A DNA stretch of 64,000 nucleotides, from positions 1 to 64,000 of the forward strand of contig NZ_BAJV01000014.1 of the NCBI RefSeq assembly GCF_000613885.1, in the 5' to 3' direction. How positions within the stretch are numbered: position 1 is the stretch's first letter; each line of letters begins with the position of its first letter. The notes under the pieces were generated by a model. It saw nothing but the letters and a program-made list of their open reading frames with translations. It searched no databases and was not told where the DNA came from. This DNA comes from Asaia prunellae JCM 25354 (lineage in GTDB: Bacteria; Pseudomonadota; Alphaproteobacteria; Acetobacterales; Acetobacteraceae). The translations under genes and the position numbers were made by a program. Shown here piece by piece: positions 320-58,946 of this stretch.

Positions 320-1608
320 TTAGTAGCGGTATTCTTCGTGCTTGAATGGACCGGCAACCGGCACGCCGATATAATCGGCCTGCCTGGTGCTCATCTTGCT
401 CAGCTCGGCGCCTACCTTGGCGAGATGGAGCGCTGCCACCTTCTCGTCCAGCTTCTTCGGGAGGGTATAGACCTTGGTCTCATACTGGCCCGGCTTGGCC
501 GTCCAGAGTTCGATCTGGGCCAGGGTCTGATTGGTGAAGGACGCCGACATCACGAAGGAAGGGTGACCCGTGCGTTGCCAAGGTTCACGAGACGGCCTTC
601 AGATAGCAGGATGATGCGCTTGCCATCGGGGAACTCGATCTCGTCCACCTGCGGCTTGACGTTGTCCCATTTGTAGTTGCGCAGCGCCTCGACCTGAATT
701 TCGCTGTCGAAATGGCCGATATTGCACACGATGGCGCGGTGCTTCATCTCGCGCATATGCTCGACGGTGATGATGTCGACATTGCCCGTGCAGGTCACGA
801 AGATATCACCACGTGGTGCGGCGGCTTCCATCGTCACGACCTCATAGCCTTCCATTGCGGCCTGAAGAGCGCAGATCGGGTCGACTTCGGTCACGAGCAC
901 ACGGCAGCCGGCATTGCGCAGCGAGGCGGCCGAGCCCTTGCCCACGTCGCCGTAACCGGCAACCACAGCAACCTTGCCCGCCATCATGACGTCGGTGCCA
1001 CGGCGGATGGCGTCCACCAGGCTCTCGCGGCAACCGTAGAGGTTGTCGAATTTCGACTTGGTGACGCTGTCATTCACGTTGATGGCCGGAACCTTCAGCG
1101 TGCCTTTCTTGGCCATTTCCCAGAGGCGATGCACGCCTGTGGTTGTCTCTTCGGACAGGCCGCGCACGTCGTTCAGCATCTCGGGATACTTGTCGTGCAT
1201 CAGCACGGTCAGGTCGCCGCCGTCATCGAGGATCATGTTCGGCGTCCAGCCATCGGGACCCTTGATGGTCTGCTCGATGCACCACCAGAACTCTTCCTCG
1301 CTCAGGCCCTTCCAGGCAAAAACCGGCACTCCGGTCGCGGCGATGGCAGCAGCAGCCTGATCCTGGGTCGAGAAGATGTTGCAGGACGACCAGCGCACGG
1401 TCGCGCCAAGAGCCGTCAGCGTCTCGATCAGCACGGCGGTCTGGATCGTCATGTGCAGACAGCCCGCAATGCGCGCGCCCTTGAGCGGCTGGCTGGCGCC
1501 GTATTCCTCGCGGAGCGCCATCAGGCCGGGCATTTCGCCCTCGGCAATGGAGATTTCCTTGCGGCCCCATTCGGCCAGGGCGATGTCGCGCACCTTGTAA
1601 TCGGTCAT
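320..1608 (-). CDS. ahcY: Adenosylhomocysteinase (single-base frameshift)
   Basis: This cytoplasmic NAD-dependent enzyme hydrolyses S-adenosylhomocysteine to adenosine and homocysteine, clearing the product of SAM-dependent methylation. The N-terminal substrate domain has HMTIQTAVL and [12 protein letters not shown]. The NAD-binding domain has [10 protein letters not shown], and the C-terminus has [14 protein letters not shown]. Translation from ATG 1608 runs to about 560, then the reading continues in another frame to the stop at 320. The sequence at the break reads [13 protein letters not shown] where the family has [16 protein letters not shown], which one missing base at about 555-575 explains. 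The restored product is about 429 residues, the normal family size. A frame open upstream to 1875 lacks homology and is not part of the gene. Confidence 0.93.
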
Positions 1609-1680
1609 TCTGAAACCCTTGTTTCTCTGGTGAGGGGCATGTGTATAGAGCGAGTTCCCGCTTTCGACCAGCACGCATGA

Positions 1681-1710
1681 AAAACGCCCGCTCCCGAAGG
1701 GGCGGGCGTT
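1681..1710 (-). terminator. Intrinsic terminator of the gene at 1736-2104
   Basis: On the minus strand a GC-rich stem (AACGCCCGC paired with GCGGGCGTT, tight loop) is followed by TTTTT. It lies 26 bases past the stop of the secreted-protein gene and upstream of ahcY, so ahcY probably has its own promoter in 1609-1680. Confidence 0.75.
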
Positions 1711-1735
1711 GCTGCTGTTGGAACAGTCAGATGTT

Positions 1736-2104: not shown

Positions 2105-2313
2105 GACAGACTCCTGTCGAAGACCGGGGAAAGGACGTCCAGTGTGGTTATTGTTTTTGGAGGACGGTTAGACGAACTGGTAACAAACCGGCAGCGTTTC
2201 GGTTTCCTCATACGCAGATTAAGGTTTGAAACCGGTTGCCTGAGTCAGGCACACATGCGACAGAGCGGGCAGCGCGTCGTCCGCGTTTCCGATCCCTCAT
2301 GATGGAGGATGGC

Positions 2314-3398
2314 ATGTCCAATACACGCTCGCAGCTGCCGTTCTCAGTCGTCGCAGGTCAGGACATGAAGCCGAATGGCGTTCTGCCTCACGGGATCGCC
2401 AACGGACTGGTCTGGGCCATCAGGGCACGCCCGGGTGAAGATCCTGTGCCGCTTGAGCCGCATGAGATTGAAAGCCTGCTCAACGATCGCACACCTCCTT
2501 CCAATTATCCCAAGCCTTCCGAAAGCTGGGCCTGGCTGCATTTCGATACGGTGCACAGCTCGGCGCGCCAGCATGTAGCGACCCTGCCTTGCCTGCCGGA
2601 AGATGTCAGCGCCATGCTGGCTGAAACCGAATATGGTGTCATGCTTGAGGCTCTGCCTGGCCTTGTCTGGGGTGCGCTTCCTGCTTTCGATGATGCCGTT
2701 TCGGAAGAAGACCGTGATATCTGTGCCTGGCGCTTTGCTATGCGTCCCGATTTACTCATCACCACACGACGCAACCCCATTCCGGTGCTGGGTGCTGCCT
2801 TTCGCACATTGCGGGCCGATTCAATTCCCCGCAGCCCGGCCGGGGTAATCGACCGTGCTCTGCGTGAGTTCACTGGCAGTGTACGCCGCCAGATCGGCAA
2901 GCTTGATGACGAGCTGGATCGTGCTGAAGATGCGTTGCTTCTGATCGAGCGTCGTACCGATCTGGGCCATCTGGGTGGTATTGTGGGTAAGGGGCGACGC
3001 CGTGCTACCGAATTGCGCCGTGTTGTAACACCTATTGATCGCGTGTTGCGTGATGAGGATCTGGAATTACCCGAATGGCTGAGGATGAGTTGCGCGATCG
3101 GACCGAACGTCAGGTCCACGCGGCGCTGGATGACATGATTGCGCTTCTCGACCGTGCCCGTTCGCTTCAGGATGAGCTCGGGTCATCTCAGGCTGAAGAG
3201 ACGAACAGGCGTCTCTATATCCTGACCGCAGCAACCATCCTCATGTTTCCTGCCACGCTTGTGACCGGTTTTTTTGGCATGAATACGGGAGGTATGTATC
3301 TGGCGAGTGGGCAATATGGCACGATCGAAGCGGGTATTGTCTGTTTCATTGCCATGATTCTGACCTGGGTATTCCTAAAGCTTGCTCGTCTTCTCTGA
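2314..3398 (+). CDS. CorA/ZntB-family divalent cation transporter (frameshifted)
   Basis: Inner-membrane metal ion channel or transporter of the CorA superfamily. A long soluble N-terminal domain with a helical region (VRRQIGKLDDELDRAED) precedes two C-terminal membrane segments. The first ends in GFFGMNTGG, which is the GMN signature in the form seen in ZntB-like members, so zinc efflux or uptake is possible. The best start is ATG 2314, with GGAGG five bases upstream; ATG 2299 is an alternative. A missing base near 3075-3085 splits the frame before the membrane segments. The restored product is about 361 residues. A second, classic CorA lies at 49858. Confidence 0.85.
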
Positions 3399-3926
3399 CA
3401 GACTCGGGAGGGGCGAATGCGACACGCGCTATTTTTTTCCAGGGCCCTCCGAGATAACGCCATAGATTCAGGGCAGCCGCGAAACTGGCAGCGCGTGGAG
3501 GCTCTGCCGAAAGCTGAGCGTGCAAGGTTCTTGCCTGTTCTGGAGAGACCTTGTTCTGCACGGTCAGATGTGGTCGCCAGCGTGACTGATCCTGTCGGGT
3601 CAGACTGTCTGCAGGAAGGGAGGCACAGATAGCCTCGCGGATTAAGGCTCCAGCAGGCAGAACAGACGATAGGCCACGCCATGCCCCAGCAGTACTGGCG
3701 CCTCGATCCGCACCAGGGGCGCCGGACGGGGTTTGTTCATGATCTCCAGAACAAGAGCTTCATGTTCGGCTCTCAGGGTATGAAACAGCGTAATGTGTGC
3801 CGGTACGATATTGCGTTGTGGGGGAAAATAAAGGTTCCGCTGCGCTTGCGCCCATGCCTGCTCGTCGGGGGCGAGTTCAAGCGTCAGAATGAGTGGTTCT
3901 TCTGTATGTTCTGTCACGACCGGCAT
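3346..3926 (-). CDS. 2'-5' RNA ligase family 2H phosphoesterase (frameshifted)
   Basis: This is a small cytosolic protein of the 2H phosphoesterase fold. Both catalytic HxT motifs are visible: HITLFH in the N-terminal part and HLTVQNK after the frame break. The break lies near 3660-3670, where CLLEP-stop in one frame continues as LPAGALIREAI in the next. The restored length is about 193 residues, which fits the family. Members hydrolyse cyclic phosphodiesters in RNA or nucleotides; the exact substrate cannot be read from sequence. The 3' end overlaps the end of the convergent CorA gene by 53 bases. Confidence 0.75.
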
Positions 3927-4094: not shown

Positions 4095-5023
4095 TCACTC
4101 GCTGCCTATATGGTGTGTGCCACGTGTGCGTGCCAGATCTTCCTGATGTTGCCGTGCAGCATAACGGGCACGCTGAATGTCGGTCCGCTCGGTAGCGCAG
4201 GCAGGACATTGTACGCCCTCGACGTAAAGATCCGAAGTCTTGTCCTGCGCCGAGACAGGGCGACGGCAGCCATGGCATAAATCATAATCGCCGGGTTCGA
4301 GACCGTGGCGTACAGTGACCCGCTGGTCGAACACGAAGCATTCACCTTCCCACAGACTTTCGGATTCCGGCACGTCTTCAAGATATTTCAGAATGCCGCC
4401 CTTGAGATGATAGACGTCTTCCGCGCCTTCAGAGAGGCAAAGGCCGTGGATTTTTCGCAGCGTATACCCCCTGTGCAGAACATGGCGATTTTTGGCTTGC
4501 GTCCTTCAGCCTCAAGCGTAGCGCGTTTGGCGCGAAACCAGTCGGGAAATTCGCGAAAACTCCGGATATCCGGATCAATCGCGCCTTTGAATGTGCCGAC
4601 AGCCACTTCGTAGTCGTTGCGTGTATCAATCAGGATCGTATCAGGGTCTGAGATCAGGGCATTCCATTCGGCCGCAGGCACATAATGACCCACACCGGCA
4701 AGCGGATCGATGTCGGGCTGTCCCATGGTGACAATCTCTCGCTTGAGGCGCACTTTCATGCGGTTGAAAGGCATCGTATCGTTATGGGAAAGCTTCCATT
4801 CCAGCGCGTCGCAACCGGGCAAGGTACGAATATAGGCCAGAATGGTATCAATAGCCTCCGGGGTGCCTGCAATGGTGCCATTGATCCCCTCACGGGCCAG
4901 AAGCAGCGTACCCTTGATGTTGTGGCTCAGACAGGCGTCGAGAAGTGGACCGCGGAGTGAGGCCGGATCGGCAAATGGTGTAAAACGATAAAGAGCCGCA
5001 ATGCAGAGAAGGGCCTGCGCCAT
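4095..5023 (-). CDS. trhO: tRNA uridine(34) hydroxylase, rhodanese-like (frameshifted)
   Basis: UPF0176/TrhO family enzymes make 5-hydroxyuridine at wobble position 34 of tRNAs using oxygen. Order seen: N-terminal ferredoxin-like domain ([14 protein letters not shown]), rhodanese domain ([11 protein letters not shown]), active-site loop [10 protein letters not shown] with the conserved Cys, then a Cys-rich tail ([10 protein letters not shown] and VQCPACATE). A single missing base near 4415-4440 breaks the frame just after the active site. The restored sequence [17 protein letters not shown] matches the family pattern. Product about 309 residues. Confidence 0.9.
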
Positions 5024-5324
5024 GATGAATCTTCCTGAAACTTGAAAACCGTTTTTACGGATCTTTTAGCGCATAATCTGGATCCGGGCCTATCAAGAAT
5101 AGCCGAATTGCTGCTCGCGCGCCCGGCTTTTCATGTTCTGCAGAAATGGTCCCAGGCACGAGCATGACGATATATTTGAAATATCGGTTATGTTTCAGAT
5201 TAGCGCCTATTAACGAAATAGACAGAGCATTTTTCGTTACCACTCGTGTATTCGCCTGCCATTCAACCTGCGCCATGAATTTTCTTTATATCTCTGGCTG
5301 ACATCGATCGGGTCAGGGGGCGAT
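5024..5324. other. Intergenic region upstream of the Hint protein
   Basis: A 301-base gap between divergent trhO and the Hint gene. It is AT-richer than its flanks and must carry both promoters. I see no unambiguous -35/-10 pair. An open frame on the minus strand (5055-5276) has no ribosome-binding site or recognisable features and is not called. Confidence 0.4.
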
Positions 5325-7604: not shown

Positions 7605-9949
7605 TCAGTAGTTCAGGCTGATCTGACCAAGAAAAGTACGGCCGGTCGAAGGTGTGGCCCGGTTCGAAAACAGGCTTTGATAATTCAGACGGTTCGCCAG
7701 ATTGTAGCCGTTGAGCGACATCTTCCAGTGTTTACCCAGGCGATGCGAGATGACAGCATCGAAATCGAGATTGGCGGGAACACGCAGCGTGTTGGTGGTG
7801 TTCAGCCAGACATGCTGACGCCAGGTCATGCCGCCACCGAAAGAGATATTATAAAGCTTGTTGGGGAAAGCCTCGTAAACTGACCAGAGCGTAGCCTGAT
7901 TATGCGGTACGTACTGTACCTGCTTGCCTATAGCCGCTGCCGTATCGGAATTCAGAGTATCACTGTCATAAAGGGCATAGGTCGCGGAGATATTCCAGCC
8001 GCGCATGATCATGCCGCCAACCGAGAGTTCAAGGCCCTGGTTGCGCTGCTTGTCGCTTGAACCCAGAACCTGTCCCGTAACCGGGTCGGCGTTGATGGCG
8101 TTGTTTTTTTCCAGCCGGAAGAGCGAGGCCGTAAAGCCCATGCGATCATGAAAGGCGCTGTATTTTGCGCCGACTTCATAAAGTGTGGCCTTTTCAGGAC
8201 TGGCGAAGGAGTTGGTACCAGGGCGGATCGGTACGGAACCATTGGTCACATACATACCGCTCGGTGTGGTTGAGGTTGCCCAGGTGAAATAATAGGTCTG
8301 ATGTTCGTCAGGCGTGCCAACGAGGCTGACATTGGGGTTAAAAACGCTGCTGACCTGATGGTAGTGAATATCGGGGTTTGTCTTAACGTTGCCACCTGTC
8401 AGATTATAGCTGGTCTGCCAGCGATCCCAGCGGAATCCGCCTTTCACGGATAGCCAGTTTGTCAGCCAGATCTGATCATAAAAGAACAGACCTGTATCGA
8501 ACCCATAGCCGTTGGAATGGGATTTGGCACCCAGCGCGCCGAGAGAAACCAGACCGCCGGGGTTCAGATCGCCCGGTACCAGAAGCAGATTGCCGACAGA
8601 AGGGTCTGGATTGACCAGTGAGGCATAAGGTTTGGCCTTGAGATAGGTCGATTGCGAGCGCACGTCGTTGACGCGTTCAATATCAAAGCCCGTCACGATT
8701 TGATGCTTGAGGAAACCCGTGTGAAAATCGGCGACCATGGAGCCGACATTCTGCACCGACCAGCTTGTCTGCTGATAGGGAAGAGGAGCCATATAGGTTC
8801 CCGGCCCTGTTCCTTTACCGGCTCCACTGGGTCCTGAACGTGCGACGAGTGCCGAACTGGCATGACCCAGAAAATAGTTGTTGGTGCAGGTGGTGTCGCA
8901 GGTGGCTTTTGACGCGGCGAAAGTACGATAGAATTGTCCGCCGCGCAGATCATCAAAAAACTTAATATGGTCGTTCAGCTTGTAGGAAAAGCGTGCTGTT
9001 TCCATATTATCGTTGGTGGCGTTCTGGTCGTTGTTCGTGCCGTAGAAATTGGTGCGACGAATGCCGTATTCAGTGATTGGACCACCGGTTTTGGTACCTG
9101 GCGGGGTTACAACGGGTACACCGAAATCGGGGATCGAATTCTCCTGCTGGTGCATATATTGCAACACAAGCGTAGCGCGGCTGCCGAGACCAAACGCAAT
9201 CGAGGGGGCAATGCCCCAGCGATGCGAATACAGGAAATCACGCCCAACGATGTTATTCTCATTGCCCATGCCGGTAATGCGAAGCGCTGTGTGATCATCC
9301 AGCTTCTTGTTGACGTCGAGAACCCCGCGATAATATGAGCCCGAGCCACCGTTGAATTCGGCTGAGTAATGATCGTTCAGGGTTGGGGTCTTGGTCACCA
9401 TATTGATAGCGCCACCCGTTGTACCATTGCCGAAAACTTCGGATGATGGGCCCTTGATGACCGAAATCGTCTCAAGATTGAAGGCATCGCGCTGTAAACG
9501 CCAAAATCACGCAGACCGTCCTGATAGATGTCGTTCTGGGCCTGGAAACCACGGATCAGAAACTGGTCACCATTCATGCCGCCCGCGCCTTCGCCTATGG
9601 ATGAGGTAACGCCAGGCACGTTGCGCAAGGCCTCATCCACTGATTTCACATTCTGCTGTTTCATCAGCATTTGTGGCACAATATTGATCTGTTGCGGCGT
9701 GTGCAGCGCGTCCTGAGGCAGACGCGACAGGCCGATCGGGTCTTTCAGTGTGTTGAAACCATTGCCCATGACCGTGATCTGTTCATCAGCCTTGTGCTTG
9801 TCGCGTTTGTCTTCCTTGCGCTGACGATGCGGCTTCTTATCTTTTTCACGATCAGCGCTATCCGTAGCTGCGTGGCTTTGTGCCGATCCAAGAACGATCC
9901 CGGTGAGCATCGGAAGCAGAGTCAGGGATTTGCGCATGGGGGGACGCAT
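7605..9949 (-). CDS. TonB-dependent siderophore-type receptor (frameshifted)
   Basis: Outer-membrane gated barrel for TonB/ExbB/ExbD-driven uptake, most like catecholate siderophore receptors. Order: signal peptide (about MRKSLTLLPMLTGIVLGSAQ to AHAA), an unusual Lys/Arg/Asp-rich stretch (DREKDKKPHRQRKEDKRDK), plug domain (TPQQINIVPQ, NVPGVTSSIGEGAGG, FLIRGF), then the barrel ending with an aromatic residue (FLGQISLNY). One missing base at about 9481-9500 breaks the plug after DGLRDFGVYS, and the barrel frame resumes at NMVTKTPTL. The start is ATG 9949 (GGAG upstream) or ATG 9937. Restored length is about 781 residues. The ligand is unknown. Confidence 0.88.
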
Positions 9950-10334
9950 GTGGCGTGACACTCCAGTAAGTTGCGAAGAATTCTCAACCCACATAATGAA
10001 AACGCGACTTAATCTCAATATATTTGTAGCAAAATGTATACAGAAATTTCCAGAGTGTTAAAAATGAAACACAGGAAATATGAGCAACATCTTCGTTTTT
10101 GGCCGGATAGTCGGATCTGTCTGAAAACCGTATCGATATCGTTTTGTGTTGTCGTTATCACACGTCTTTTAATCCCTGGTCTTCATTTGTGAATCTATGA
10201 AGCAGAACACACGAAATCGGTACTCACGAAACAGTCTCTTGATCTGGCCGGTATTTTGGGGAAGGTCGATGGACTTCTTTATTCATTCCTGACACGGAAT
10301 GCGGATAGAGAGCCGTGGTAAAGGGAGCGCGTCA
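9950..10334. other. AT-rich divergent promoter region
   Basis: A 385-base gap between the divergent TonB receptor and aldose-epimerase genes, clearly AT-richer than the coding DNA. It should contain promoters for both. I looked for a Fur box for the receptor and saw no convincing match. Confidence 0.45.
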
Positions 10335-11212
10335 ATGACGTCTGAGAGTCATGTTTTCAGTAACGGGCAATATACGGCGCGCGTCGCCGCTCTGGGTGCC
10401 GAGCTTTGTTCGTTATGTGATCATACCGGCAGGGAGCTGGTCTGGAACGGAGGGGCCTGGCCCCGTCATTCACCGGTTCTTTTTCCGATCATAGGACGAT
10501 TGCGCGATAATCATGCATTGATCGATGGTCTGGATTACACGCTTACCCAGCACGGTTTTGCCCGTGATCGTCTTTTTCGCTGGGTGGAACGCAGCGAGAC
10601 CGGATGTGAGCTTGTGCTTGAAGACGATCCGACCAGTCGGGCACTTTTCCCTTTCGCATTCAGCCTGAAGCTCAGCTACAGCCTCAATGACAAGGGGCTG
10701 CATGTACGTTACAGCCTGACCAATCCCGACAAGACAGGTATTCTTCATGCGTCGCTCGGTGCGCATCCTGCCTTTGTGTGGCCTCTCCAGTCTGGCATCA
10801 GAAAGACCGATTACGTTATTGATTTCGAGGTGCCCGAACCGGGTTCTCTTGCAGTTCTGTCGGAAGGCTTATCGCCGAGGATGAGCGGTCGAGTCCTGTT
10901 CAGGGTACGCGGCTGAAGCTTGAAGACAGTTTGTTCAAGGACGATGCATTGATTTTCCTGCATCCGGCCAGTCGAAGCCTGCGTTTCCATCCTGAAAAAG
11001 GTGATGCGCTGGCTTTCTCATGGCATGGCTTTGAACAGCTTGGCCTGTGGATGAAACCGGGCTCCGATTTTCTGTGTATCGAACCTTGGCAAGGCTATGC
11101 CAGTCCGACTGGTTTCGACGGCCCCTTTGAACAGAAGCCGGGTTTGCTGCATCTTCAACCGGGTGAGAGCTGGCAGGCTGGCTGGTCCGTAGCGTTGCAG
11201 CCCGGATCCTGA
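10335..11212 (+). CDS. Aldose 1-epimerase family protein (frameshifted)
   Basis: Galactose-mutarotase-fold protein, likely interconverting anomers of a hexose or related sugar. Seen: LVWNGG near the start, QHGFARD, the conserved histidine in LGAHPAFVWP, and a C-terminal IEPWQGYASPTG. These resemble the LacX/YihR-type subgroup and not classical GalM. ATG 10335 is used because homology begins there. The frame breaks near 10858-10875 (loss of one base), and the second half resumes through TRLKLED to the stop at 11212. Restored length about 292 residues. Confidence 0.82.
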
Positions 11213-11307: not shown

Positions 11308-12218
11308 ATGATGCGACGTTCGCTCTATGCCGTTTCGGCAGTGTTTACAGTTGTACTGGCTACTTCCCTGTCCGAACGTGCTCTGGCCTGGGGGCCTTAT
11401 GGTCATGCCATTGTCGCCGACATTGCGCAGAGCCGACTGACACCACAGGCAACAGGTGAGGTGACGCACCTTCTGGCGCTGGAAAATCACCAGACCCTTG
11501 ATCAGGTCGCTTCATGGCCCGACACGATCGGTCATGTTCCAGTGATAAGGGGGGGCTGCCTCAGACCCTCCCCTGGCATTATGTTGATACCGATACAAAA
11601 TTCTCGACCTATGAGAAGATGCGGGATTGCGGTAACGACCTTTGCGTCACTGAAAAACTGCCGGAGATGGAAAAAGTCCTTGCTGATCCGAAGGCTGCGC
11701 CTGCTGATCGGCTGGTAGCGCTGAAATGGATCGTGCATCTGGCTGGTGATCTGCATCAGCCGCTTCATGCGGCAGAGCGTGATCATGATCTGGGCGGCAA
11801 CAAGGTGAAAGTCTCTTATTTCGGTCAGGACCGAAACGGACATGAGAATCTGCATTCGCTCTGGGACGAAGGTATCATGAACCATGAGCGTCATCTTGTG
11901 GTGGGCCCTCATTATTCCATCGATTTCGCCAGGGCACGTGAAGAAGCTGATCGTCTCAATGCCGGGATCACACCCGGTCAGGCTGCGTTCTGGACCGACG
12001 ATCTTTCTATCGGAACAGTGCATGATTCGGTTGTGAAATGGACAGATGAAAGCCACGCACTGGCGCGTGGCGTCGCCTATGGGGCACTCCCCGAAGGCAG
12101 GAAGAAGGATCTGGGCGAGGCTTATACCGCTACGACCTTGCCAGTCATCGAGACACGCCTGCAACAGGCGGGTGTAAGACTGGCTGCCTTGCTCAATACG
12201 GCATTATCCACTCCCTGA
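11308..12218 (+). CDS. S1/P1 family zinc nuclease, secreted (frameshift in a G7 run)
   Basis: Predicted periplasmic or secreted phosphodiesterase/3'-nucleotidase acting on single-stranded nucleic acid with three zinc ions. A signal peptide ends at ERALA, so the mature protein starts with the family's N-terminal Trp (WGPYGHAIVADIA). Other ligand motifs: WHYVDTD, DLHQPLHA, GGNKVKV, NLHSLWDEG. AGAGG lies just upstream of ATG 11308. The frame breaks inside seven consecutive G at 11549-11555, so one G is probably lost. Restored length about 303 residues. Confidence 0.9.
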
Positions 12219-16290: not shown

Positions 16291-17161
16291 TCAGCCTTCC
16301 TGCTTTGGCAGGTTTTCGGCGATGTAAGGGGGCAGGTTGAACGCGCAACGTGGATTTCCGGCGTCCAGTAGCGGGTTGTGCCGAGAATGCCAGCAGCTTC
16401 GGCGCGTGCACGCACGTCCTCGATGCTCTGCTTTGTCGGATTCACACCCTTGGCCGCAACGCCCAGTGTCATGAAGCCACCGACATAGGTCGGCACGGCG
16501 GCGACGTAAGCCGAGACATGCGGAAAGAAAGTCGCACGACGGGCGCTGGTTTCGCGCAGTTCGTCGGCCTGCATGAAGGGGACGCCGCACTGGTTGACGA
16601 TGAGGCCCTGCGCCGAGAGGATGCGGGCGCAATCCTTGTAGAAGCATCGGTAAACAGCACCTCGCCCACGCCGATCGGGTCAGTCGAGTCGACGATGATA
16701 ACATCGAACGAGCCATCTTCGGCCTTGGCGACGTAATCAATGCCGTCACCGACGATAACGTCGGCGCGCGGGTCGTTCCATGCGTCGCCCGCAATGTCCG
16801 GCAGATGCTGCTTGGAGAGTTCGATAACGGCGCCGTCGATTTCGACCATGACGGCCTTCTCGACGGTCTTGTGCTGGAGTACGCGACGCAGAACACCACC
16901 GTCTCCTGCACCAATGATCAGCACACGTCTGGCATCGGGATGCGTCAGCAGGGGCACATGCGTCAGCATTTCCTGATAGACGAATTCGTCACGTTCGGTG
17001 ATCTGAATGACGCCATCCAGTACGAGAACGCGACCATGGAACTCGCTTTCGAACACCACGATGTCCTGAAAGTCGCTCTTGACGCGTGCGAGTTCGCGCG
17101 TGACGCGAAAGCGCTGGCCCCAGTCGGGATACAGGGTTTCGTTGATCCAAGATTCAGACAT
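16291..17161 (-). CDS. speE: Spermidine synthase (two frameshifts)
   Basis: Transfers an aminopropyl group from decarboxylated SAM to putrescine, in the cytosol. N-terminal strand domain (FHGRVLVLDGVIQITERDEF), then the SAM-fold: VLIIGAGDGGVLRR, MVEIDGAVIEL, GDGIDYV and the catalytic VDSTDPIG. Two one-base losses, near 16645-16655 and 16340-16350, are needed to read FYKDCARILSAQG and the C-terminus AFNLPPYIAENLPKQEG. Restored length about 290 residues. It follows speD on the same strand with a terminator between them. Confidence 0.9.
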
Positions 17162-17181
17162 TGCGCTGCCTCTCCCTCATG

Positions 17182-18175: not shown

Positions 18176-19347
18176 TCAGCCTTTCATGGCAATCGATCTG
18201 CCTCGGGAGCCCAGATCTGCAAAGGCTTCTTCAAGGCGATCCACAATGCTTTTTTCACCGACGCGCAGCCATTTGCGTGGGTCGTAGATCTTTTTGTAGG
18301 GGACATCGGTTTCGGGGTCGATCTGGTGCAGGAAAGCCTTGGGGTTTTCGAGCACGTATTGGCCAATCCCGTTGGCAAAGGCGAATTGTACATCTGTATC
18401 GATGTTCATCTTGAAAACACCATAGGATACCGCGGCCGTGATCTTGTCTTTTTCCGAGCCTGAGCCGCCGTGAAAGACGAGGGCGAGCGGCTTGGGGCCA
18501 TGACCGGTCTTTTCGGCAACATGTTCCTGCGAATGAAGCAGGATTTCCGGACGAAGCTGCACATTGCCTGGTTTGTACACACCATGCACATTGCCGAAAG
18601 AAGCTGCGATCGTCACATGACCAAGGGGGGACAGGCGGTTCCAGGCAACGAGAACGTCCTCGGGCTGGGTGTAGAGATGGGCATTGTCTTCATGGTCTTC
18701 CAGATCATGACCAATGCCATCTTCCTCGCCGCCAGTGACACCGAGTTCGATTTCGAGACTGATACCGAGGCTGGCCATGCGCGGCAGAAGCCGTGCGCAT
18801 TCTGCCAGGTTGTCTTCAAGAGGCTCGGCCGAGAGATCGAGCATATGCGAGGAAAAAAGTGGCGGTCGACCGGCAGCGACCTCTGCCTCGCTCAGATCAA
18901 GCAGTCCTTCGACCCAGGGAATGAGCTTGCGATCGGCATGATCGGTATGAAGGATGACGCAGATACCATATTCCTTCGCCAGAAGATGCACGTGGTGCGC
19001 CATGGCTGCGGCACCAAGAACGCGGCTCTGTGCTGGTCGGCCAGCCCCTCGCCCGCATAGAAACGGGCGCCGCCGTTGGAGCACTGAATGATGACATCCG
19101 ATTTGTTCCTGGCGGCGGCTTCGAGAACCGCATTCACGCTATCGGTACCGACAACATTGATGGCGGGCAAGGCATACCCGCCCTCCTTGCAGGCATTGAT
19201 CAGGGCAAGATAGTCATCACCTGTGACAACTCCCGGGGGTAAGGCTCGGCTGGGGCGCGACGCATTCGGGCTTGTAGGGGTCATAATCATCTCATGTTTC
19301 TGATAGCGGGTAGTCACAGCTAATTTATCGCTATCAGACTTCGCCAT
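18176..19347 (-). CDS. fba: Class II fructose-bisphosphate aldolase (frameshifted)
   Basis: Zinc-dependent aldolase of glycolysis/gluconeogenesis, closest in pattern to the E. coli FbaA type. Motifs: GVVTGDDYLALINACKEGGY, INVVGTDSVNAVLE, zinc ligands in ILHTDHADRKL, LEIELGVTGGEEDG, FGNVHGVYKPGNV and VFHGGSGSEKD, and the MNIDTD phosphate-binding block. One base is missing near 19021-19045; the restored read is LADQH-R-VLGAAAMAHHVH. ATG 19347 has a good AGAGG site seven bases upstream, which gives an N-terminal extension of about 20 residues; ATG 19284 (MTPTSP) is the alternative. Confidence 0.92.
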
Positions 19348-19512
19348 GCCTAGACCTCTCATGGACACATTGAAGTCATTCTTATTGCAGGACGCCAGCA
19401 ACGGTACCCTTTCCGGCTGTTTTCCCTTGCGCTGATCGACCCGTTCGGTCAGTTTCGGGCTTTCCCTTGTCGGGAACCAAATGGCAATTTTCCGGCCTGT
19501 CGGATCGGAGGC

Positions 19513-22226: not shown

Positions 22227-22534
22227 TCAGTAGTGTGATTGCAGGGACATCAGAAGAAGATGATGCAGGGCCGGCACGACGAGATATTGTAGTGCCAGAA
22301 GCACGACCAGAGGCTTAGATCGAGAGCGCCAAACTGGGGCAGGATAGAGCGTACCGGGTTGAGGACGGGCTCGACAATGCGTCCGAGAAAAACAGCCACA
22401 TTGTAGACAAGACGATTACCAGGATCCAGAATTCTGAAACCCAGCAGCATGCTCATGACGCAGTACAGGATCAGTGCCCAGGTAAAGAGCTGAATCAGCA
22501 TCATGAGGATGTTGTAAAGGGTGACGATCAGCAA
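22227..22534 (-). CDS. YggT family integral membrane protein (frameshifted near the C-terminus)
   Basis: Small two-segment membrane protein: a hydrophobic N-terminus (YNILMMLIQLFTWALILYCV), the conserved RIVEPVLNPVRSILPQFGALD, then a second membrane helix. After LDLS the frame breaks near 22310-22325. In the next frame the sequence reads PLVVLLALQYLVVPALHHLLL and stops at 22227, which matches YggT ends. Restored length about 102 residues. The role is unclear; links to membrane or cell-division machinery are known for relatives. Confidence 0.85.
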
Positions 22535-22626
22535 GTCTGGTCTCTCTGCAAAATAGATAATTCCTGCATCCTAGCGCTTTGCTGGCCGCTCACACAACTC
22601 GGCCATCCTTGCCGGACATGACAATC

Positions 22627-28056: not shown

Positions 28057-28066
28057 CAACAGAATA

Positions 28067-38285: not shown

Positions 38286-39846
38286 TCACTCTCCGGAGAG
38301 TGGCAAAGGCACCCAACGCAGCCCGTCCTGTCCCTGAACAAGAAGCAGGATTGTATGTTTTTTCTGCTGGCGTGCACGTGTCAGTTCTTTTGACAGGGCA
38401 TCCGGCGAGTTTACGCCTACCTGCTGTACCTCCGTCACCACGTCTCCTGTCTGCAATCCGCGCGTATCAGCAGGGCCGTCGCGTGTGACGTCGGTTACAA
38501 CGACACCGCGCTGGGAGTCGGACAGATTGTATTTGGCGCGCGTCTCGTCATCGATCGCTGCGAAGGTAACGCCCAGATCTGCCAGAGCCAGCTTGCTGGG
38601 TCCTTTGGTCTTGGCCTCGGTGGGTGGCATGTCGGGTGTCTCAGGTGAGGGGCGGATCTCACTGTCGCATCAAGTGTTTTTCCCTTGCGCCAGATGCCGA
38701 ATGTCGTTTTGGTTCCCGGAGTGATTTCGGCTACCAGACGGGGCAGGGCATGACCGTCGATTGGTTTGCCGTTAAGAGAGACAATGACATCGCCTGTCTG
38801 CAGTTTAGCTGCTGCAGCTGGACCTTTTGGGTCAACACTTGCGATCATGGCCCCTTTTTCGGGTTTGAGACCAATACTGTCAGCAATTTCATGCGTGACA
38901 TCCTGCACCTTGACCCCGACCCATCCACGCGACACATGGCCGTCGCGGCGCAACTGCTCGATGACTCCTTTGGCGTCATTGGCAGGAATGGCAAAACCGA
39001 TGCCGATGGAACCACCACTTGAACTGTAGATGGCGGTATTGATGCCAATGACCTCACCGTTGAGGTCGAAAAGGGGGCCGCCTGAATTGCCGCGATTGAT
39101 GGAGGCGTCGGTCTGGATATAGTCGTCATACAGGCCATGATTGATGTCGCGCCCGCGAGACGACACGATACCGCTCGTGACGGTACCAGACAGGCCGAAC
39201 GGATTGCCGATGGCCAGCACGCGATCGCCCACACGTGCCTTGTCGCTGTCGCCGAAAGATACGATTGGGAAGGGCGCCTTGCGTTCGATCTTGATCACCC
39301 CGAGATCGGTACGGCTGTCGCGTCCTATGATCTTGGCTGGGAGCACCGTGCCATCCTGCAACGTGACCGATACCTTGTCAGCATCCTTGATGACGTGGTT
39401 GTTGGTCACGATATAGCCGTCAGGCGAGATGATGAATCCCGAGCCAGAGCCTGCATCTTGCGTGGCGGGTCCGACGGGTTCGGCGCATGGTTCATGTAGT
39501 CGTGAAAGAATTTCTCCATCGGCGAGCCGGGTGGAAACTGAGGAACCTGCGGCCCGTCATCAGGGCTTGCATCCGGGCCGTCATCATCATCGTCATCTTC
39601 GCCAGGCTTCAGCGTTGCCGAGATCGAAATATTGACTACGGCAGGCAGCAGACGGGCAGCAAGGTCCGCCAGTGAATCGGGAGCTGCATGCACGCTTCGC
39701 GCCACGGCAGCAGGATCGGCCTGAGCCGTTGCCATCGGGGCGCCTGTCGTCGAGGCTCCGGGAGGAGCCGCTGTCTGGGCGAAAACGGAAGAACTGGCGG
39801 AGACCCAGCCGCCCATCAGAGCAGCAAGAACGAAGCGATGTTTCAT
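38286..39846 (-). CDS. degP: Do/DegP family periplasmic serine protease (two frameshifts)
   Basis: Periplasmic quality-control protease and chaperone. Signal peptide to VFAQ, an acidic run (GEDDDDDDGPDASPDDG), the trypsin-like domain with His in TNNHVI, Asp in SRTDLGVI and Ser in RGNSGGPLFD, then two PDZ domains (GWVGVKVQDVTHEIA; KLALADLGVTFAAID). Breaks near 39440-39470 (before GSGFIISPDGYIV) and 38655-38675 (between the PDZ domains) each fit one lost base. Restored length about 520 residues from ATG 39846. Confidence 0.92.
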
Positions 39847-39865: not shown

Positions 39866-41064
39866 TCATGGGTTTGCGTCACCTATCTCCGCGTTACGAT
39901 CTTTCTTTGCTTCTTCCAGAGCTTCCTTGCGTGTCTCACCGGCCATCAGCGCGGCCTGACGGCGATGGCGATCGAGCCAGACTGCCAAGCATAAACGCCA
40001 AGGAAGCCGAGGATATTGACGAGAATCTGGATAACCCAGCCATCGCCGAAGCTGTTCATGACCAGACGGGCAAACAGATCCAGGATGGTTCCGAAGCTGA
40101 AAACCTCGAGAGAGTGGCGCCCGAGCATCGCCAGGCCCTGACCGCCCCTTGTCTCCGAAAGTCTTGTGGCTGTGATGGAGGACTGCACAAGAATAAGAAT
40201 GGCCATGGCATCGACCCATCGCCAGATGGCAAGATCCGACTTGTCGGCCTGGGGGATATCGGCGAGCGGCCTGAGGCTTGGCAGGTTCCAGCTTTCGTAA
40301 GGGAAGCACTCAAGCGCGCCGAAGATCAGATAGATGATCGCGAGTGTTTTCGCCCAGAGTGGCCCTGGCAGATTGCCGTCGCGTCTGCCCGCCATGATGG
40401 CCGCCAGCATTCCCAGTGTGAAGATGAGTTGCCATGCGAAGGGGTTGAAGTACCATCCATCCGGGTCGAGCCAGTTCGGCAGATTGAGTGTAGGATCGCT
40501 GTTGATCAGACCCCAGAGCGCCAGACTCGTACCCCCCAGAAGCCATGGCGAAATCTTCCACAGGAAAACCAGCAGAGGGAAAGCCAGCAGAAGGACGATG
40601 TAGAGTGGCAGAATGTTCAGGTTGTTGGGGAGGGCTTCGAGGGAAAGCACCCGCCAGACCCATTCATGCCCGTGAGCAAGCTCGGGTTCGAGGAAATCGA
40701 CCGGGACGGGAGAATAATGGCGCCATTGTCTGATGGTAAAGACCGACACCAGAAGCATGACCATCTGGAAAAGATAGAGCCGCCAGCAACGACGCACGAT
40801 CCGTTCGATACCCACAAGCCAGCCACCTGTCGGAGGCCCGCGCAGGATCAGCCGACCATAAGCCAGCCATGAGGCATATCCGGCCAGAAGGACGAAGATT
40901 TCGGCAGCATCGGCAAAGCCGAAATTACGCAAAGTGAATCGGTTGAGCACATCCTGAGGGGCGTGATCGGCCAGCATCATCAGCAGTGCGATGCCACGAA
41001 GCGCATCAATGCGATGGTCGCGTTTCCTGCGTTTCGGGGCGGCGTCGGTCTTGGCCTCGCTCAT
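39866..41064 (-). CDS. opgC: OpgC protein, acyltransferase-type (C-terminal frameshift)
   Basis: Polytopic inner-membrane protein of the OpgC/acyltransferase-3 superfamily that adds succinyl or similar groups to periplasmic glucans. It starts RDHRIDALRGIALLMMLADH and has FVLLAGYASWLAYGR and about ten membrane helices. Near 39975-39992 the frame breaks; the next frame adds a charged cytoplasmic tail (LDRHRRQAALMAGETRKEA) ending at 39866. Restored length about 399 residues. It is upstream of degP, in the same minus-strand run as opgGH. Confidence 0.85.
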
Positions 41065-41205
41065 TCCTGTCCTGCTTTCCTGCCCAGATAGTCCGGGAGG
41101 GTACCCGGCTCCGCCCTGCTCATACGCGCAGATGCTTGCGTGATCCACTTCCCGCCATGCTAAATGAAAGCGCACAGGGTACGGCCCCGTCGCCAGAGGA
41201 CAAAC

Positions 41206-42351
41206 ATGACCGATTTTGAAAAACCCGCCAATGAAACCGACCAGCGCAGAATTCTCGAGACCCTGCGTCTTGTCAAAGACGAGGCAGGCACATCGAATGT
41301 CCTGAGTTTTGCCTCTCTCGAGGGCATCGCCCTGCGCGATGGTCATGCTCACGTGTCGCTTGCGACCTCGCGTGAGGATGCTGCCCGTATCGAGCCAATG
41401 CGCCCCCGTGTCGAAGCTGCCCTTGCCACTTTGCCCGGGATTTCACGCGCGACCATCATTCTGACAGCGCATCGCGCACCCGGAAAGGCCGCGGCACAGC
41501 CGCAGGGACACCGTCCCTTCCAGCTCGAGCAACCTGCCAACAGTCCAGGCCATCCCCAGCCGACGCGTCCTGATGGCAAGGCCCTGCCTCAGGTGCGTGC
41601 CATCATTGCCGTGGCATCGGGCAAGGGTGGGGTGGGCAAATCGACCACTGCGGTCAATCTCGCAGCGGGTCTGGCCAGGCTAGGGCTGCGCACCGGTATG
41701 CTTGATGCCGATATTTACGGCCCCTCCCTGCCACGTATGCTCGGTCATTCTGCCAAACCGGCTCTGGAAAACGGCAAGATCATTCCTGTCGAAGCCTGGG
41801 GCATGCATGCGATGTCGATCGGGTTCCTGGTTGATGAGCAGCAGGCCATGATCTGGCGCGGTCCCATGGTCATGGGGGCTATCGGGCAGTTTCTTGCCGA
41901 TGTGGCCTGGCCCGCTCTCGACGTGCTCGTGATCGATATGCCCCCCGGTACGGGTGATGCCCAGCTTACCATTGCCCAGAAGCTCAGTCTGCGTGGTGCG
42001 GTGATTGTTTCCACCCCGCAGGATATTGCCCTGCTCGATGCCCGCCGTGGTCTTGCCATGTTCGAGCGGATGAATGTGCCGCTTCTGGGTATTGTGGAGA
42101 ACATGTCCTATTTCTGCTGTCCGAACTGCAACCATCGTACCGAGCTTTTCGGGCATGGTGGTGCGCGTGAGGAAGCCGAGAAGGCGAATGTGCCGTTCCT
42201 TGGCGAAATTCCATTGCTTGCTGATATTCGCATGAGTGCTGATGCCGGCACACCGATCATTCTTTCGGCACCGGAAAGTGAGGCAGCACAGGCTTATACC
42301 CGTCTTGCCCGTGCAGTAGCCCAGAGCCTGCGTCTGGAGCCCGGAGCATGA
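41206..42351 (+). CDS. apbC: Mrp/ApbC family iron-sulfur cluster carrier ATPase
   Basis: Cytosolic P-loop NTPase that carries Fe-S clusters. An N-terminal MIP18-like (DUF59) domain is followed by Walker A ASGKGGVGKSTTAVNLA, DADIYGPSLPRMLG, VIDMPPGTGDAQLT and the CxxC cluster site in CCPNCNHRTELFG. GAGGACAAAC before ATG 41206 supports that start (381 residues). It overlaps the small lipoprotein gene at its end. Confidence 0.93.
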   Translation: MTDFEKPANETDQRRILETLRLVKDEAGTSNVLSFASLEGIALRDGHAHVSLATSREDAARIEPMRPRVEAALATLPGISRATIILTAHRAPGKAAAQPQGHRPFQLEQPANSPGHPQPTRPDGKALPQVRAIIAVASGKGGVGKSTTAVNLAAGLARLGLRTGMLDADIYGPSLPRMLGHSAKPALENGKIIPVEAWGMHAMSIGFLVDEQQAMIWRGPMVMGAIGQFLADVAWPALDVLVIDMPPGTGDAQLTIAQKLSLRGAVIVSTPQDIALLDARRGLAMFERMNVPLLGIVENMSYFCCPNCNHRTELFGHGGAREEAEKANVPFLGEIPLLADIRMSADAGTPIILSAPESEAAQAYTRLARAVAQSLRLEPGA

Positions 42352-42639: not shown

Positions 42640-43292
42640 TCAGTTCCCGGCGGGTTTGGCCTGGTCGCCGGTATTTTCCGTCACGGAGACATCGCCGCTG
42701 ACCGTGCGGTTGAGCACCGAGAAAGACACGGCGTCCATGGTCGTGACATCGACATCATCGCCGATCTTGAGCGTGCTGAGCAAAGGCCACAGGGCCTTTT
42801 GCCTGACAGTTACGGTGCGTGTGATGTCAGCATGGTCGATGACTGTTACCTTATGGGCAGCAGCATCGACAGCCACGACTTTGACGCGCTGACGCTGGAA
42901 CGAGACGAGCGTGCCATGAGGGTGGCGCTTCGCATGGCCTTTGGCGGATGAAACCGTCGATTCAGGAAGCGGGCTGCCAGGGGCGGCAATATCAGCGGCC
43001 ATGGTCTGGAAGAACCGCATCGAAATATGATCACCCGCTTCGAGATGAGGCAGATTCTTGGCATCCTTCGGATGGTGAGCGTAAGGAGACCGCCTTTCTG
43101 ATCACGGAGGAGGATGGTTCTGGTCTGCATATCGACGGTTTCGACCGTCGCATTCATGTTTTGGTTGCCCGTGATCACGGCCTGCGCGGCTGCGTGCCTG
43201 GGGGTGGCCGTCAGGGCTGATGCCGACAGGAGAAGGGCAGTCAGTGCGGGGCCCAGAAAACGACGGGTCATACGCGTTATTCTCGAAACCAT
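42640..43292 (-). CDS. Exported hypothetical protein (frameshifted)
   Basis: Signal peptide (LGPALTALLLSASALTATP to AAAQA), then a domain with paired NxNATVETVDMQTRTILLRD and VVAVDAAAHKVTVIDHAD strands, each followed by a KNLPHLEAGDHI or LSTLKIGDDVDV block. This suggests two similar small beta domains. The break is near 43065-43075 (one base lost). Restored length about 217 residues; ATG 43271 is an alternative start. Family not recognised. Confidence 0.65.
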
Positions 43293-51407: not shown

Positions 51408-51588
51408 AGAAAGCAAGAGCCGCATGCTTCCATTGTATCGCGGCCTCTCTCAAGACCTTTCGTCTTCGCTCATCGTCGGGCCCGTTCCGCGGCCCATCTG
51501 ACGGAGCATTCTTTCGCGATCGATCATCTGTCACGGATACGGTTCCGTCTCCCGGGCAGTGGACTATAGCCCATCTAAGGCGCTTTTC

Positions 51589-52883
51589 ATGCATCTTGCT
51601 GAACTCAAGAAAAAATCCCCTGCCGATTTGCTGGCCTATGCTGAAGAGCTGCAAATCGAGAATGCGTCTTCAATGCGCAAGCAGGACATCATGTTCGCCA
51701 TTCTCAAGACCCTGGCGGATAATGATCAGGCCATCTACGGTGAAGGCACGCTCGAGATCCTGTCTGACGGTTTCGGCTTTCTCCGCTCTCCCGAGGCCAA
51801 TTATCTTCCTGGTCCGGATGATATCTATATCTCTCCCGCCCAGGTGCGCCGCTTTGGTCTGCGCCCCGGTGATACGGTCGAGGGGCAGATCCGCGCCCCG
51901 CGCGATGGAGAGCGGTATTTCTCACTGCTCAAGGTCAATTCGATTAATTTCGAAGAGCCTGATTCCGTCCGTCAACGCATCAATTTCGACAATCTGACGC
52001 CGCTCTATCCTGAGCGTCGTCTGCGTATGGAAGTCGAGCAGGCAGGGGCTCCGGAGCCGCAGCGACCGGCAAGGGCAAAAAAGACCAGCGTGATTACACA
52101 CCGCGTGTGATCGATCTCGTGGCCCCCATCGGCATGGGTCAGCGCGCCCTGATTGTGGCACCGCCGCGCACCGGTAAGACCGTGATGCTGCAGAGCATCG
52201 CCTCATCCATCAGTGCGAATCATCCTGACGTCTTCCTGATCGTTCTGCTTATTGATGAGCGCCCGGAAGAAGTGACCGACATGGCCCGCTCCGTACGCGG
52301 CGAAGTTGTGTCGTCCACCTTCGATGAGCCCGCGACCCGTCATGTTCAGGTGACAGAAATGGTGCTGGAGAAGGCCAAGCGTCTGGTTGAGCACAAGCGT
52401 GACGTCGTCATTCTGCTTGACTCGATCACCCGTCTGGCCCGCGCCTACAACACAGTTGTGCCCTCATCGGGCAAGGTGCTGACCGGCGGTGTCGACGCCA
52501 ACGCCCTGCAGCGTCCAAAGCGCTTCTTTGGCGCCGCGCGTAATATTGAAGAGGGTGGCTCGCTTACCATCATCGCCACGGCACTGATCGATACCGGTAG
52601 CCGTATGGATGAGGTGATCTTCGAAGAGTTCAAGGGTACGGGTAACTCCGAGCTCATCCTCGATCGCAAGCTTGCTGACAAGCGCACCTTCCCGGCTATC
52701 GACATCACCAAGTCGGGCACGCGTAAGGAAGAACTCCTTGTCGATCGTGCCATGCTCTCGAAGATGTGGGTGCTGCGTCGTATCCTCTCGCCAATGGGCA
52801 CGATGGATGCGATGGACTTCCTGCTCGACAAGCTGAAATACAGCAAGACGAACCAGGATTTCTTTGACGCCATGAACAACTGA
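51589..52883 (+). CDS. rho: Transcription termination factor Rho (frameshifted)
   Basis: Hexameric RNA-dependent ATPase ending transcription. N-terminal RNA-binding domain ([53 protein letters not shown]) and ATPase core ([43 protein letters not shown]). One base is missing near 52045-52065; [19 protein letters not shown] reads through in the next frame. The restored length of about 431 residues is normal. Rho is often essential in proteobacteria, so decay is unlikely. Confidence 0.95.
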
Positions 52884-53055: not shown

Positions 53056-53061
53056 GCTGTG

Positions 53062-53508: not shown

Positions 53509-53520
53509 AAAGGAATTCAC

Positions 53521-54825: not shown

Positions 54826-54832
54826 GGGCTGA

Positions 54833-56689: not shown

Positions 56690-57267
56690 ACAACGTTTCA
56701 CGTGAAACTGCAGAGCGTCTGGAAGCCTTCGCAGCCATTCTCGAAAAATGGAATGCGCGCATCAATCTGGTGAGCCTGCGCGATATGCCCCATCTCCGGG
56801 AGCGTCATATAGAGGATTCTCTGAGGCTGGTGCCGTTCATAGAGCGTGGTGCGCGGGTGATCGATCTTGGCTCGGGTGGCGGGTTTCCAGCCCTTGTGAT
56901 CGGTATAGCCTGCGACGCCGAGATGGTTATGGTGGAGTCAGATCAACGCAAATGCGCGTTTCTGAGAGAGGCAGCGCGGGCCTGTGGTGTCAAGGCGCAG
57001 GTTATTCCAAGGCGCATCGAGCAGGCCGAAATCGCTCCTGCTGCCTATGTCACAGCGCGCGCTCTGGCATCGCTTTCACAATTGCTGGAATGGAGCGCGC
57101 CCTTTTTGCTGCCAGAGGGAAAAGCCCTGTTTCTGAAGGGAAAAAATCTGCCAGATGAGTTGACCGAAGCCGAACGGTGCTGGCACATGCAGCATAGAAT
57201 TCTGGACAATCGCGCCACCTCAGGGGGCGCCATCATCGAGATAAGTGATATCAGACGTGTCGACTAA
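56686..57267 (+). CDS. rsmG: 16S rRNA (guanine-527-N7) methyltransferase
   Basis: SAM-dependent methyltransferase of 193 residues. Motifs: [39 protein letters not shown] (SAM loop), and VTARALASL. Its start overlaps mnmG (ATGA). The first codons encode NNVSRET, the peptide expected from a parS site at the gene's start. Confidence 0.95.
56694..56709. promoter_or_regulatory. parS-like site at the rsmG start (14 of 16)
   Basis: CGTTTCACGTGAAACT retains the full 12-base TTTCACGTGAAA-type core and differs only at the two outer bases. Confidence 0.75.
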
Positions 57268-58069
57268 CGACACGGGCAAAAAGGCCCGTATTCTTGCCAT
57301 AACCAACCAGAAGGGCGGTGTGGGCAAGACAACAACAGCAATCAATCTGGCTGCTGCGCTTGCCAGTACGCAGCGTGTGCTTCTGGTTGACCTCGACCCG
57401 CAGGGCAATGCCTCGACCGGGCTTGGTGTGGATTATAACGCGCGTCAGATTGGCAGCTATGCCGCTCTGATGCAGGAGGCGGCTCCTGACAAGCTGCCTC
57501 GCCCGACAGGGATGGACAATCTCGACATCATCGTCGCCAACACCGACCTGGCTGGCGCTGAAATCGAACTGATTGGCAGTGATCGACGTGAGTTTCGTAT
57601 TCGCGAAGCCCTTGAGGCTCTTTCCGGACGCTACGATGTCATTCTGATTGATTGTCCCCCGAGTCTTGGCTTGCTGACGCTCAATGCGCTTGTGGCCTCT
57701 GATGCTGTTCTGATTCCGCTACAATGCGAGTTCTTTGCCCTTGAGGGGATCAGTCAGATCGTACGCACGGTTGATCGTGTGCGTCGTGCGTTCAATGCTG
57801 ATCTGCATGTAGCTGGAATCATTCTCACCATGTACGACCGGCGCAACAACCTCTCCGAACTGGTGGCGGCAGATGCACGAAATTTCTTTGGTGAACAGGT
57901 GCTGGAAACGCTGATACCGCGCAATATCAAGATATCAGAAGCTCAGAGCCATGGTTGTTCCGTGCTTGAATATGATCGACGCAGCAGCGGTGCTGCGGCT
58001 TATCTTGCCCTTGCACAGGAAATTGCCGGGCGTCTGGGCCTTGGTTGCAAGGAAGGGGCTTCTTCATGA
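57245..58069 (+). CDS. parA: Chromosome partitioning ATPase ParA
   Basis: Deviant Walker ATPase that moves ParB-parS complexes. ITNQKGGVGKTTTAINLA (Walker A), DLDPQGNASTGLG, DCPPSLGLLTLNAL, LTMYDRRNNLS. 274 residues from GTG 57245; GTG 57257 is an alternative. It overlaps rsmG by 23 bases and parB by four (ATGA). Confidence 0.95.
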   Translation: MISDVSTNDTGKKARILAITNQKGGVGKTTTAINLAAALASTQRVLLVDLDPQGNASTGLGVDYNARQIGSYAALMQEAAPDKLPRPTGMDNLDIIVANTDLAGAEIELIGSDRREFRIREALEALSGRYDVILIDCPPSLGLLTLNALVASDAVLIPLQCEFFALEGISQIVRTVDRVRRAFNADLHVAGIILTMYDRRNNLSELVAADARNFFGEQVLETLIPRNIKISEAQSHGCSVLEYDRRSSGAAAYLALAQEIAGRLGLGCKEGASS

Positions 58070-58946
58070 GCAAGAAACCGGCTCCACGCCTCGGGCGTGG
58101 TCTCGCTGCCCTTCTGGGAGATCAGGCTGTTGAACTGCCACGGCTCCTGCTTCAGGTCACGAGACTGTTCCAGGCCCGGCCATGCTCGGTGTTGATCTGT
58201 TGGCGCCTGGCCCTTTCCAGCCACGAGTGGACATGGATGAGGGCCGTCTGAATGAACTGGCTGACTCGATCCGCAGCCGGGGTGTGCTCCAGCCAATCCT
58301 GGTACGGCCTGATCCTGATCAAAAAGGACGCTATCAGATTATCGCTGGCGAACGTCGTTGGCGGGCGTCGCAACGCGCCGGTTTACATGAGGTGCCGGTG
58401 CATGTGCGTCTGCTGGATGACGCCGATGCCATGGCGGCCGCTCTGGTCGAGAATCTGCAGCGCGCCGATCTTAATGCAATTGAAGAAGCCGAGGGCTTGC
58501 AAAGGCTTCTGACCGATTACGCGCTGACACAGGAGGAGCTGGCTGGTGCGGTTGGCAAGTCGCGTCCGCATATCGGCAATATCCTGCGGCTTCTGAACTT
58601 GCCGGAGGCTGTGCGCCAGAAGGTACGTGATGGATTGTTGAGTGCAGGGCATGCCCGTGCATTGCTGGCTCATCCTGACCCGTGTGCTGCAGCTGATATC
58701 GTTATCGCACGTGGGCTCAATGTGCGTCAGACAGAAGCTCTGGCCCGTCAGACACCCAGAGCCGAGCAGGAGGAGGTCAAGCCGCCTCGTGACAATGAGC
58801 TGGTCCGTCTGGAGCGGGATCTGGCTACGCGCCTCGGGCTCAAGGTCAAGATTGAGTTCAACGGCAAGGGCGGTTCACTGCGTCTGGATTATCGCAGCCT
58901 TGATCAGTTCGATACGCTCATGCGGCTGCTTTCCCCGGAAAACTGA
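58066..58946 (+). CDS. parB: Chromosome partitioning protein ParB (frameshifted)
   Basis: parS-binding CTP switch. MSKKPAPRLGRGLAALLG at the N-terminus, then after one missing base near 58135-58145 the ParB domain: FQPRVDMDEGRLNELADSI, YQIIAGERRWRAS (GERRxR CTP motif), ALVENLQRADLNAIEEA, helix-turn-helix TQEELAGAVGKSRPHIGN, and a C-terminal dimerisation part. Restored length about 293 residues. Confidence 0.94.

Follow-up and report, generated by a model that had tools for sequence, protein, structure and literature searches.

One-sided single-base losses in a draft contig of Asaia prunellae JCM 25354 are very probably consensus errors and not gene decay

The first 64,000 bases of contig C25 in the draft genome of Asaia prunellae JCM 25354 (here termed the window, and the draft G000) contain 20 genes that appear to be broken by frameshifts. 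Every break that has been located is the loss of a single base, and it is very probable that these breaks are consensus errors in the draft assembly and not mutations. In the living cell the 20 broken-looking genes are almost certainly intact, since each break is a single missing base of the kind that is typical of sequencer drop-outs. Error is favoured over decay because the losses are one-sided, are spread over the genes in proportion to their length and are accompanied by neither a raised ratio of nonsynonymous to synonymous substitution (dN/dS) nor a clear nonsense change, and also because six sister genomes are without the signature whilst two carry it in the same sequence context.

The G000 draft comprises 38 contigs and 3,179,680 bases, with a completeness of 95.01% and contamination of 1.1. 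It was compared with eight other genomes (G001 to G008) of Asaia, a genus of acetic acid bacteria (Acetobacteraceae), syntenic stretches of which were joined and then compared with the window; a 3-kb piece of the window matches all eight with DNA identities of 76-82%. One protein of the window has a match of 74% identity in Asaia siamensis CCM 7132. Breaks were called by comparing the open reading frames (ORFs) of each genome with the DNA of every other genome by tblastn, and a break was regarded as supported when the frame change was backed by at least three of the eight query genomes. The window has 27 supported clusters before strand merging, all 27 of them a net loss of one base, and 25 distinct exact single-base losses with no gains after merging. 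Support for each break comes from three to eight genomes, the weakest being that at 3659 with three, and the 32 clusters (of 59) with fewer than three supporting genomes, which were dropped, included both losses and gains. Of the 56 orthologous genes compared, 20 carry at least one of the 25 breaks. A further break in the gene for oligopeptidase B, next to a C6 run at the 5' end, lies too close to the gene end for either the tblastn or the DNA-alignment break lists and is visible in the nine-genome alignment, giving 26 single-base losses in 26 located breaks. The initial annotation had counted about 26 frameshifts in 20 genes, each consistent with one missing base, and both statements hold, as does its observation that protein homology picks up again past each break, which is borne out by tblastn.

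A separate check on the break sites was made by DNA alignment of the nine genomes. This break-by-break alignment to orthologues, proposed in the initial annotation, confirms 24 of the 25 sites (all except 3659). At these 24 sites the base is present in seven relatives without exception and in G006 at 23, the one missing being that in ahcY. Breaks common to a finished relative, which had been named as a result that would speak against error, were not seen, the single-contig G002 carrying the base at each of the 24 readable sites.

The breaks are distributed as if by gene length alone, with 20 genes broken compared to the 19.2 of 56 expected when 25 breaks are thrown by length, and rho, fba, ahcY and priA are not spared but are all amongst the broken genes. 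Measured against G007, dN/dS is 0.087 in the broken genes (7,002 codons) and 0.107 in the unbroken (10,382 codons), with a value of 0.136 for G007 against G002, and by this measure relaxed selection in the broken genes is not seen. Nor are there the mixed lesions that would be expected of decay, the supported coding breaks in the window all being single-base losses. The screen for nonsense changes flagged ten in-frame stops in the window, compared with 0 to 7 in the other genomes. The two near 14,400 were rejected as nonsense changes when the alignment placed both in an over-extended frame, and the other eight were set aside as lying over intact opposite-strand ORFs or in an over-long query start, these being judged by position and not singly; no clear nonsense change was found among the ten flagged stops, of which two were checked by alignment. 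For the window, the DNA alignment has in addition 11 rows with a single-base gain and one with a two-base gap. None of the gains was accepted as a coding break, since by position they fall in flanks, between genes or in over-extended starts, and the gap of two bases sits upstream of a start codon, leaving no supported coding gain in the window.

The losses, each placed by scoring offsets against the relatives with the window sequence left unaltered, occur in a particular sequence context. Of the 25 window losses, 21 are of a G or a C (66% simulated, p 0.04), and 19 are of a G or C from a run of which one or two bases are left (27% simulated, p 5e-7); five of the remainder are without a run and one is in a T run. 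In G006 losses of this run type make up 18 of 25 (p 4e-6). When the lost base is read as C, a G precedes the run in 18 of 19 cases in the window, 16 of 18 in G006, 5 of 7 in G001 and 4 of 5 on C30, a second contig of the G000 draft, which pooled is 43 of 49 against 47% simulated (p 3e-9). The GCC/GGC-type context accounts for 18 of 25 losses in the window (p 4e-12) and 16 of 25 in G006 (p 9e-10), both against 11.7% simulated, and for 5 of 14 in G001 (p 0.02) and 4 of 9 on C30 (p 0.01); it is clearly present in G006 and weakly in G001. On the contig plus strand the ratio of G to C losses is 14:5 in the window, 10:8 in G006 and 6:1 in G001, figures that, coming from the assembly, are no more than suggestive of strand asymmetry. 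No located loss lies in a G/C run longer than two to three, although the C6 run of oligopeptidase B may be one. Of the two homopolymers offered as examples in the initial annotation, this C6 near 30855 does fit a loss, with its placement ambiguous, whilst the G7 at 11549-11555 is intact; the codons over the G7 run are in frame with those of the relatives, and the actual loss in this S1/P1 nuclease gene is near 11542, about 7 bases upstream.

The window and G006 have their ahcY break at one and the same alignment column, with the printed stretches of both identical, and this shared break is most likely a sequence-determined error, as such an error would break the same site in both. Two near-coincident pairs in other genes have sites that differ. 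A compression-type (hairpin) cause was dropped because 64 breaks, folded as 36-base stretches, did not exceed GCC/GGC control sites in the strength of local folding. Homopolymer spectra were also rejected as evidence, the window being poorer than its relatives in G/C runs of 4 and 5, but its lower G+C explaining this equally well.

This low G+C is probably a true property of the species, with 56.1% in the window, 56.4% in the C30 stretch and 58.8-61.0% in the eight relatives. A. prunellae JCM 25354 has been tabulated with 3.18 Mb, 55.8% G+C and 3,583 coding sequences (CDS), every other Asaia tabulated having at least 58% G+C; in the same source A. bogorensis NBRC 16594 has 3.20 Mb and 2,896 CDS, A. 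astilbis 58.0% G+C and 3,482 CDS, and A. platycodi 59.3% G+C and 3,774 CDS (PMC8156966). Table 1 of that paper places A. prunellae and A. bogorensis IPC-01 under one assembly accession, and the accession given for A. prunellae in PMC4596401 is GCF_000613885.1.

Asaia prunellae is not the only species affected. Before strand merging, supported breaks number 31 in G006 (27 losses and 4 gains), 16 in G001 (14 losses and 2 gains), 4 in G005 (2 losses and 2 gains) and a single gain in G004, with none by the same tblastn test in G002, G003, G007 and G008; counts this low in other genomes speak against chance as the source of the window breaks. Strand-merged exact single-base events were counted in five of the nine genomes (the window, G006, G001, G005 and G004), with a ratio of losses to gains of 25:2 in G006, 14:1 in G001 and 0:2 in G005, and none in G004. 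The signature is found in three of the nine Asaia genomes (G000, G006 and G001) and six are without it; the listed completeness of G006 is 85 and that of G001 is 88.

Elsewhere in G000, the queried stretch of contig C20 was matchless in seven of the nine genomes (all except G000 and G008), and 60 kb of contig C30 was chosen instead and compared with five relatives. It has 13 clusters backed by three or more queries, 12 of which are net losses modulo 3 and one a gain, and exact single-base events of nine losses and one gain. The controls for C30 gave three events in G007 (two losses and one gain), one each in G002 and G004, and none in G003 and G005. As the same losses are found on C30, the problem is not local to the window. 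At position 14475 of the C30 stretch there is a net +2 frame change relative to all five relatives, which may be either a compound error or a genuine difference.

The mechanism is probably that a flow-based sequencer under-calls short G/C runs, mostly of two to three bases and mostly in a GCC/GGC context, and that where enough of the reads covering a site are affected the assembler would build a consensus one base short, which would give the rate of one loss per ~2.3 kb of gene in the window and the lower rate on C30. We infer that the platform was the Ion Torrent Personal Genome Machine (PGM) with assembly by Newbler. The fingerprint of the losses resembles the strand-asymmetric class of high-frequency indels described for the PGM (Bragg et al. 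2013, PMC3623719), which like the losses seen here are single-base events, 82% of them in homopolymers of two to three with C/G deletions dominant. Some sites recur in both, high-frequency indel sites common to PGM runs being above random expectation, and all high-frequency indels together occur there at ~1 per 1,000-2,000 bases. The two are unlike in that a motif is suspected in that account but goes unnamed, whereas the window losses are in GCC/GGC, and in that many insertions and low run-to-run replication are described there, whereas the window is without a supported coding gain. GGC motifs of this kind were sought in Ion Torrent papers, and in the portions of the literature searched they are described for Illumina data only. 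The window rate of ~43 indels per 100 kb (25 in 57.7 kb of gene) fits Ion PGM with Newbler, for which 56.2 indels per 100 kb has been reported compared to 3.6 for MiSeq (PMC4159541).

There are precedents for such errors. The Ion Torrent assembly of Corynebacterium pseudotuberculosis 316 had more than 400 apparent pseudogenes, reduced to 64 after curation (PMC3917457), and many of these came from false frameshifts, as is proposed here for the window, although there the reads were at hand whilst the window is known from its assembly alone. Closer to the present case, a mutated cyo operon in A. astilbis JCM 15831 led its authors to suspect that the draft was 'highly erroneous' or the mutation rate high (PMC4596401); error was thus already suspected in an Asaia draft, and whilst the account given there leaves the matter undecided, the counts obtained here point to error in G000, G006 and G001.

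A number of points weigh against error of this type. The case for it is built from a comparison of assembled sequences and is indirect, and the exact placement of many losses is uncertain because the relatives are only 76-82% identical in DNA. The excess of losses in G/C runs in G001 (7 of 14, p 0.06) is not significant alone, and on C30 the break rate is about half that of the window, one exact event is a gain, and the clusters there include multi-base events of net +2 and net +32. The paper searches turned up no statement of the platform used for this record, and the JCM drafts of 2013-14 are presumably Ion PGM drafts, an assumption that has as its only backing another Japanese draft. That draft, a different record of 2014, was made with Ion PGM and Newbler 2.8 (PMC4214989). 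Within the PGM data strand asymmetry is confined to a minority of indels (7.4% of testable sites), homopolymers hold only 29% of the single-base high-frequency indels, most high-frequency indels are unreplicated between runs, and insertions are common (PMC3623719), yet the window has no supported coding gain.

The alternative that the breaks are true mutations, in a strain losing genes as insect-associated Asaia do, is very unlikely. Genome reduction has been described in Asaia (PMC6317953, PMC8092202) and the G+C of the window is below that of its relatives, which can accompany reduction; however, real decay yields stops, larger deletions and substitutions and spares the genes that are needed, whereas the supported coding events are all single-base losses, scattered by gene length alone in genes whose dN/dS is unrelaxed, and the ten flagged stops, two of them by alignment, were judged not to be genuine. 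A different possibility, that the losses are real and directed by sequence, with some Asaia lineages shedding one base of a GCC/GGC run in vivo at a high rate, would explain the identical ahcY break in two species, but it too is very unlikely, the indirect tests given above speaking against it; were it true, whole proteins would still be made or mixed populations would survive. That whole proteins are made from the broken frames by programmed ribosomal frameshifting or other recoding is so improbable that it can almost be dismissed. Protein homology does resume past each break, as recoding would have it, but the relatives carry the base at the break sites, the sites and the genes are unrelated, and what they have in common is a short G/C run and not a slippery heptamer with structure, folding at the breaks being no stronger than at controls. 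The same kind of loss is also found at one non-coding site (53509-53510).

Consensus error remains the favoured explanation, and it is rather unlikely, though less so than any of the above, that it came from a platform other than Ion Torrent. The 454, early nanopore and PacBio platforms all leave indels, and nanopore drafts are rich in deletions. The A. prunellae draft was, however, already cited in 2015, before nanopore assemblies became common, and losses from G/C runs two to three bases long match the PGM strand-asymmetric class. The published rates for the 454 GS Junior and PacBio are 16.3 and 13.8 indels per 100 kb (PMC4159541), which also count against these platforms. One-sided losses, a length-proportional spread, dN/dS and sister drafts with the signature all agree with read or assembly error, as had been proposed from the sequence of the window.

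The broken genes are listed in Table 1, their names having been checked on the intact proteins of relatives against Pfam and NCBIfam. The names given in the initial annotation are backed for 19 of the 20: NCBIfam supports ahcY, trhO, speE, class II fba, priA, degP, rho and parB, Pfam supports CorA, the 2'-5' RNA ligase family, aldose epimerase, S1/P1 nuclease, YGGT, aspartyl protease, TPR and OpgC, and the siderophore receptor, oligopeptidase B and polyol dehydrogenase have strong NCBIfam matches below the curated cut-off. The exception is the protein it had called the 42640 protein, for which the intact copy of a relative has no Pfam or NCBIfam match. In the reference ORF for fba the first ~80 residues are probably an over-extended start.

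Table 1. Genes of the window with single-base losses, and one loss at a non-coding site (positions in the window)
Feature	Position	Strand	Breaks and remarks
ahcY (adenosylhomocysteinase)	323..1683	-	1, near 571; G006 broken at identical site
CorA/ZntB-like transporter	2236..3395	+	1, near 3078
2'-5' RNA ligase (2H phosphoesterase) family	3409..3911	-	1, near 3659; 3 query genomes, absent from DNA-alignment list
trhO	4098..5074	-	1, near 4436-4452
TonB-dependent siderophore receptor	7608..9949	-	1, near 9491; NCBIfam below cut-off
Aldose 1-epimerase family	10239..11197	+	1, near 10866
S1/P1 nuclease	11308..12215	+	1, near 11542, upstream of intact G7
speE (spermidine synthase)	16294..17176	-	2, near 16340 and 16643
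fba (class II fructose-bisphosphate aldolase)	18179..19464	-	1, near 19030
YggT family protein	22230..22585	-	1, near 22313
Retropepsin-like aspartyl protease	22791..23712	-	2, near 23114 and 23510
priA	24709..26937	+	3, near 25690, 26430 and 26738
TPR protein	27383..28059	-	1, near 27763
Oligopeptidase B (ptrB-like)	28792..30873	-	2, near 30799 and at 5' end, 30855-30865, beside C6; NCBIfam below cut-off
Polyol (arabinitol/mannitol-type) dehydrogenase	35603..37059	-	1, near 36028; NCBIfam below cut-off
degP/htrA protease	38289..39846	-	2, near 38650 and 39450
OpgC protein	39869..41231	-	1, near 39989
Conserved Asaia protein, no family	42661..43292	-	1, near 43071
rho	51559..52880	+	1, near 52070
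parB	58066..58940	+	1, near 58144
Non-coding single-base loss, short gap between two divergent genes	53509..53510	.	flanks match consensus at 24/24

At the non-coding site the base is present in all eight relatives; G001 has a two-base gap near to this site. Further along the window, between tRNA-Lys and tRNA-Gln, no orthologue was selected from the syntenic regions of six relatives for the stretch 59114-62000, inside which is an acyltransferase-3 family gene at 60019-61146; this stretch is possibly an insertion at a tRNA gene.

Whilst the breaks are biologically ordinary, they matter as a caution that pseudogene counts from such drafts are unreliable, and G000 was scored as 95.01% complete despite breaks in 20 of the window's 56 orthologous genes. 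The GCC/GGC context offers a cheap test for such drafts. In a study of 30 Asaia genomes, frameshifts and internal stops were among the criteria for pseudogenes and gene erosion was read from pseudogene counts, with three plant isolates having a different pattern of erosion (PMC8092202). The main text of that paper names none of the three JCM species, and we suspect that the three plant isolates are the JCM drafts; if so, part of the erosion pattern ascribed to them would be instrument error.

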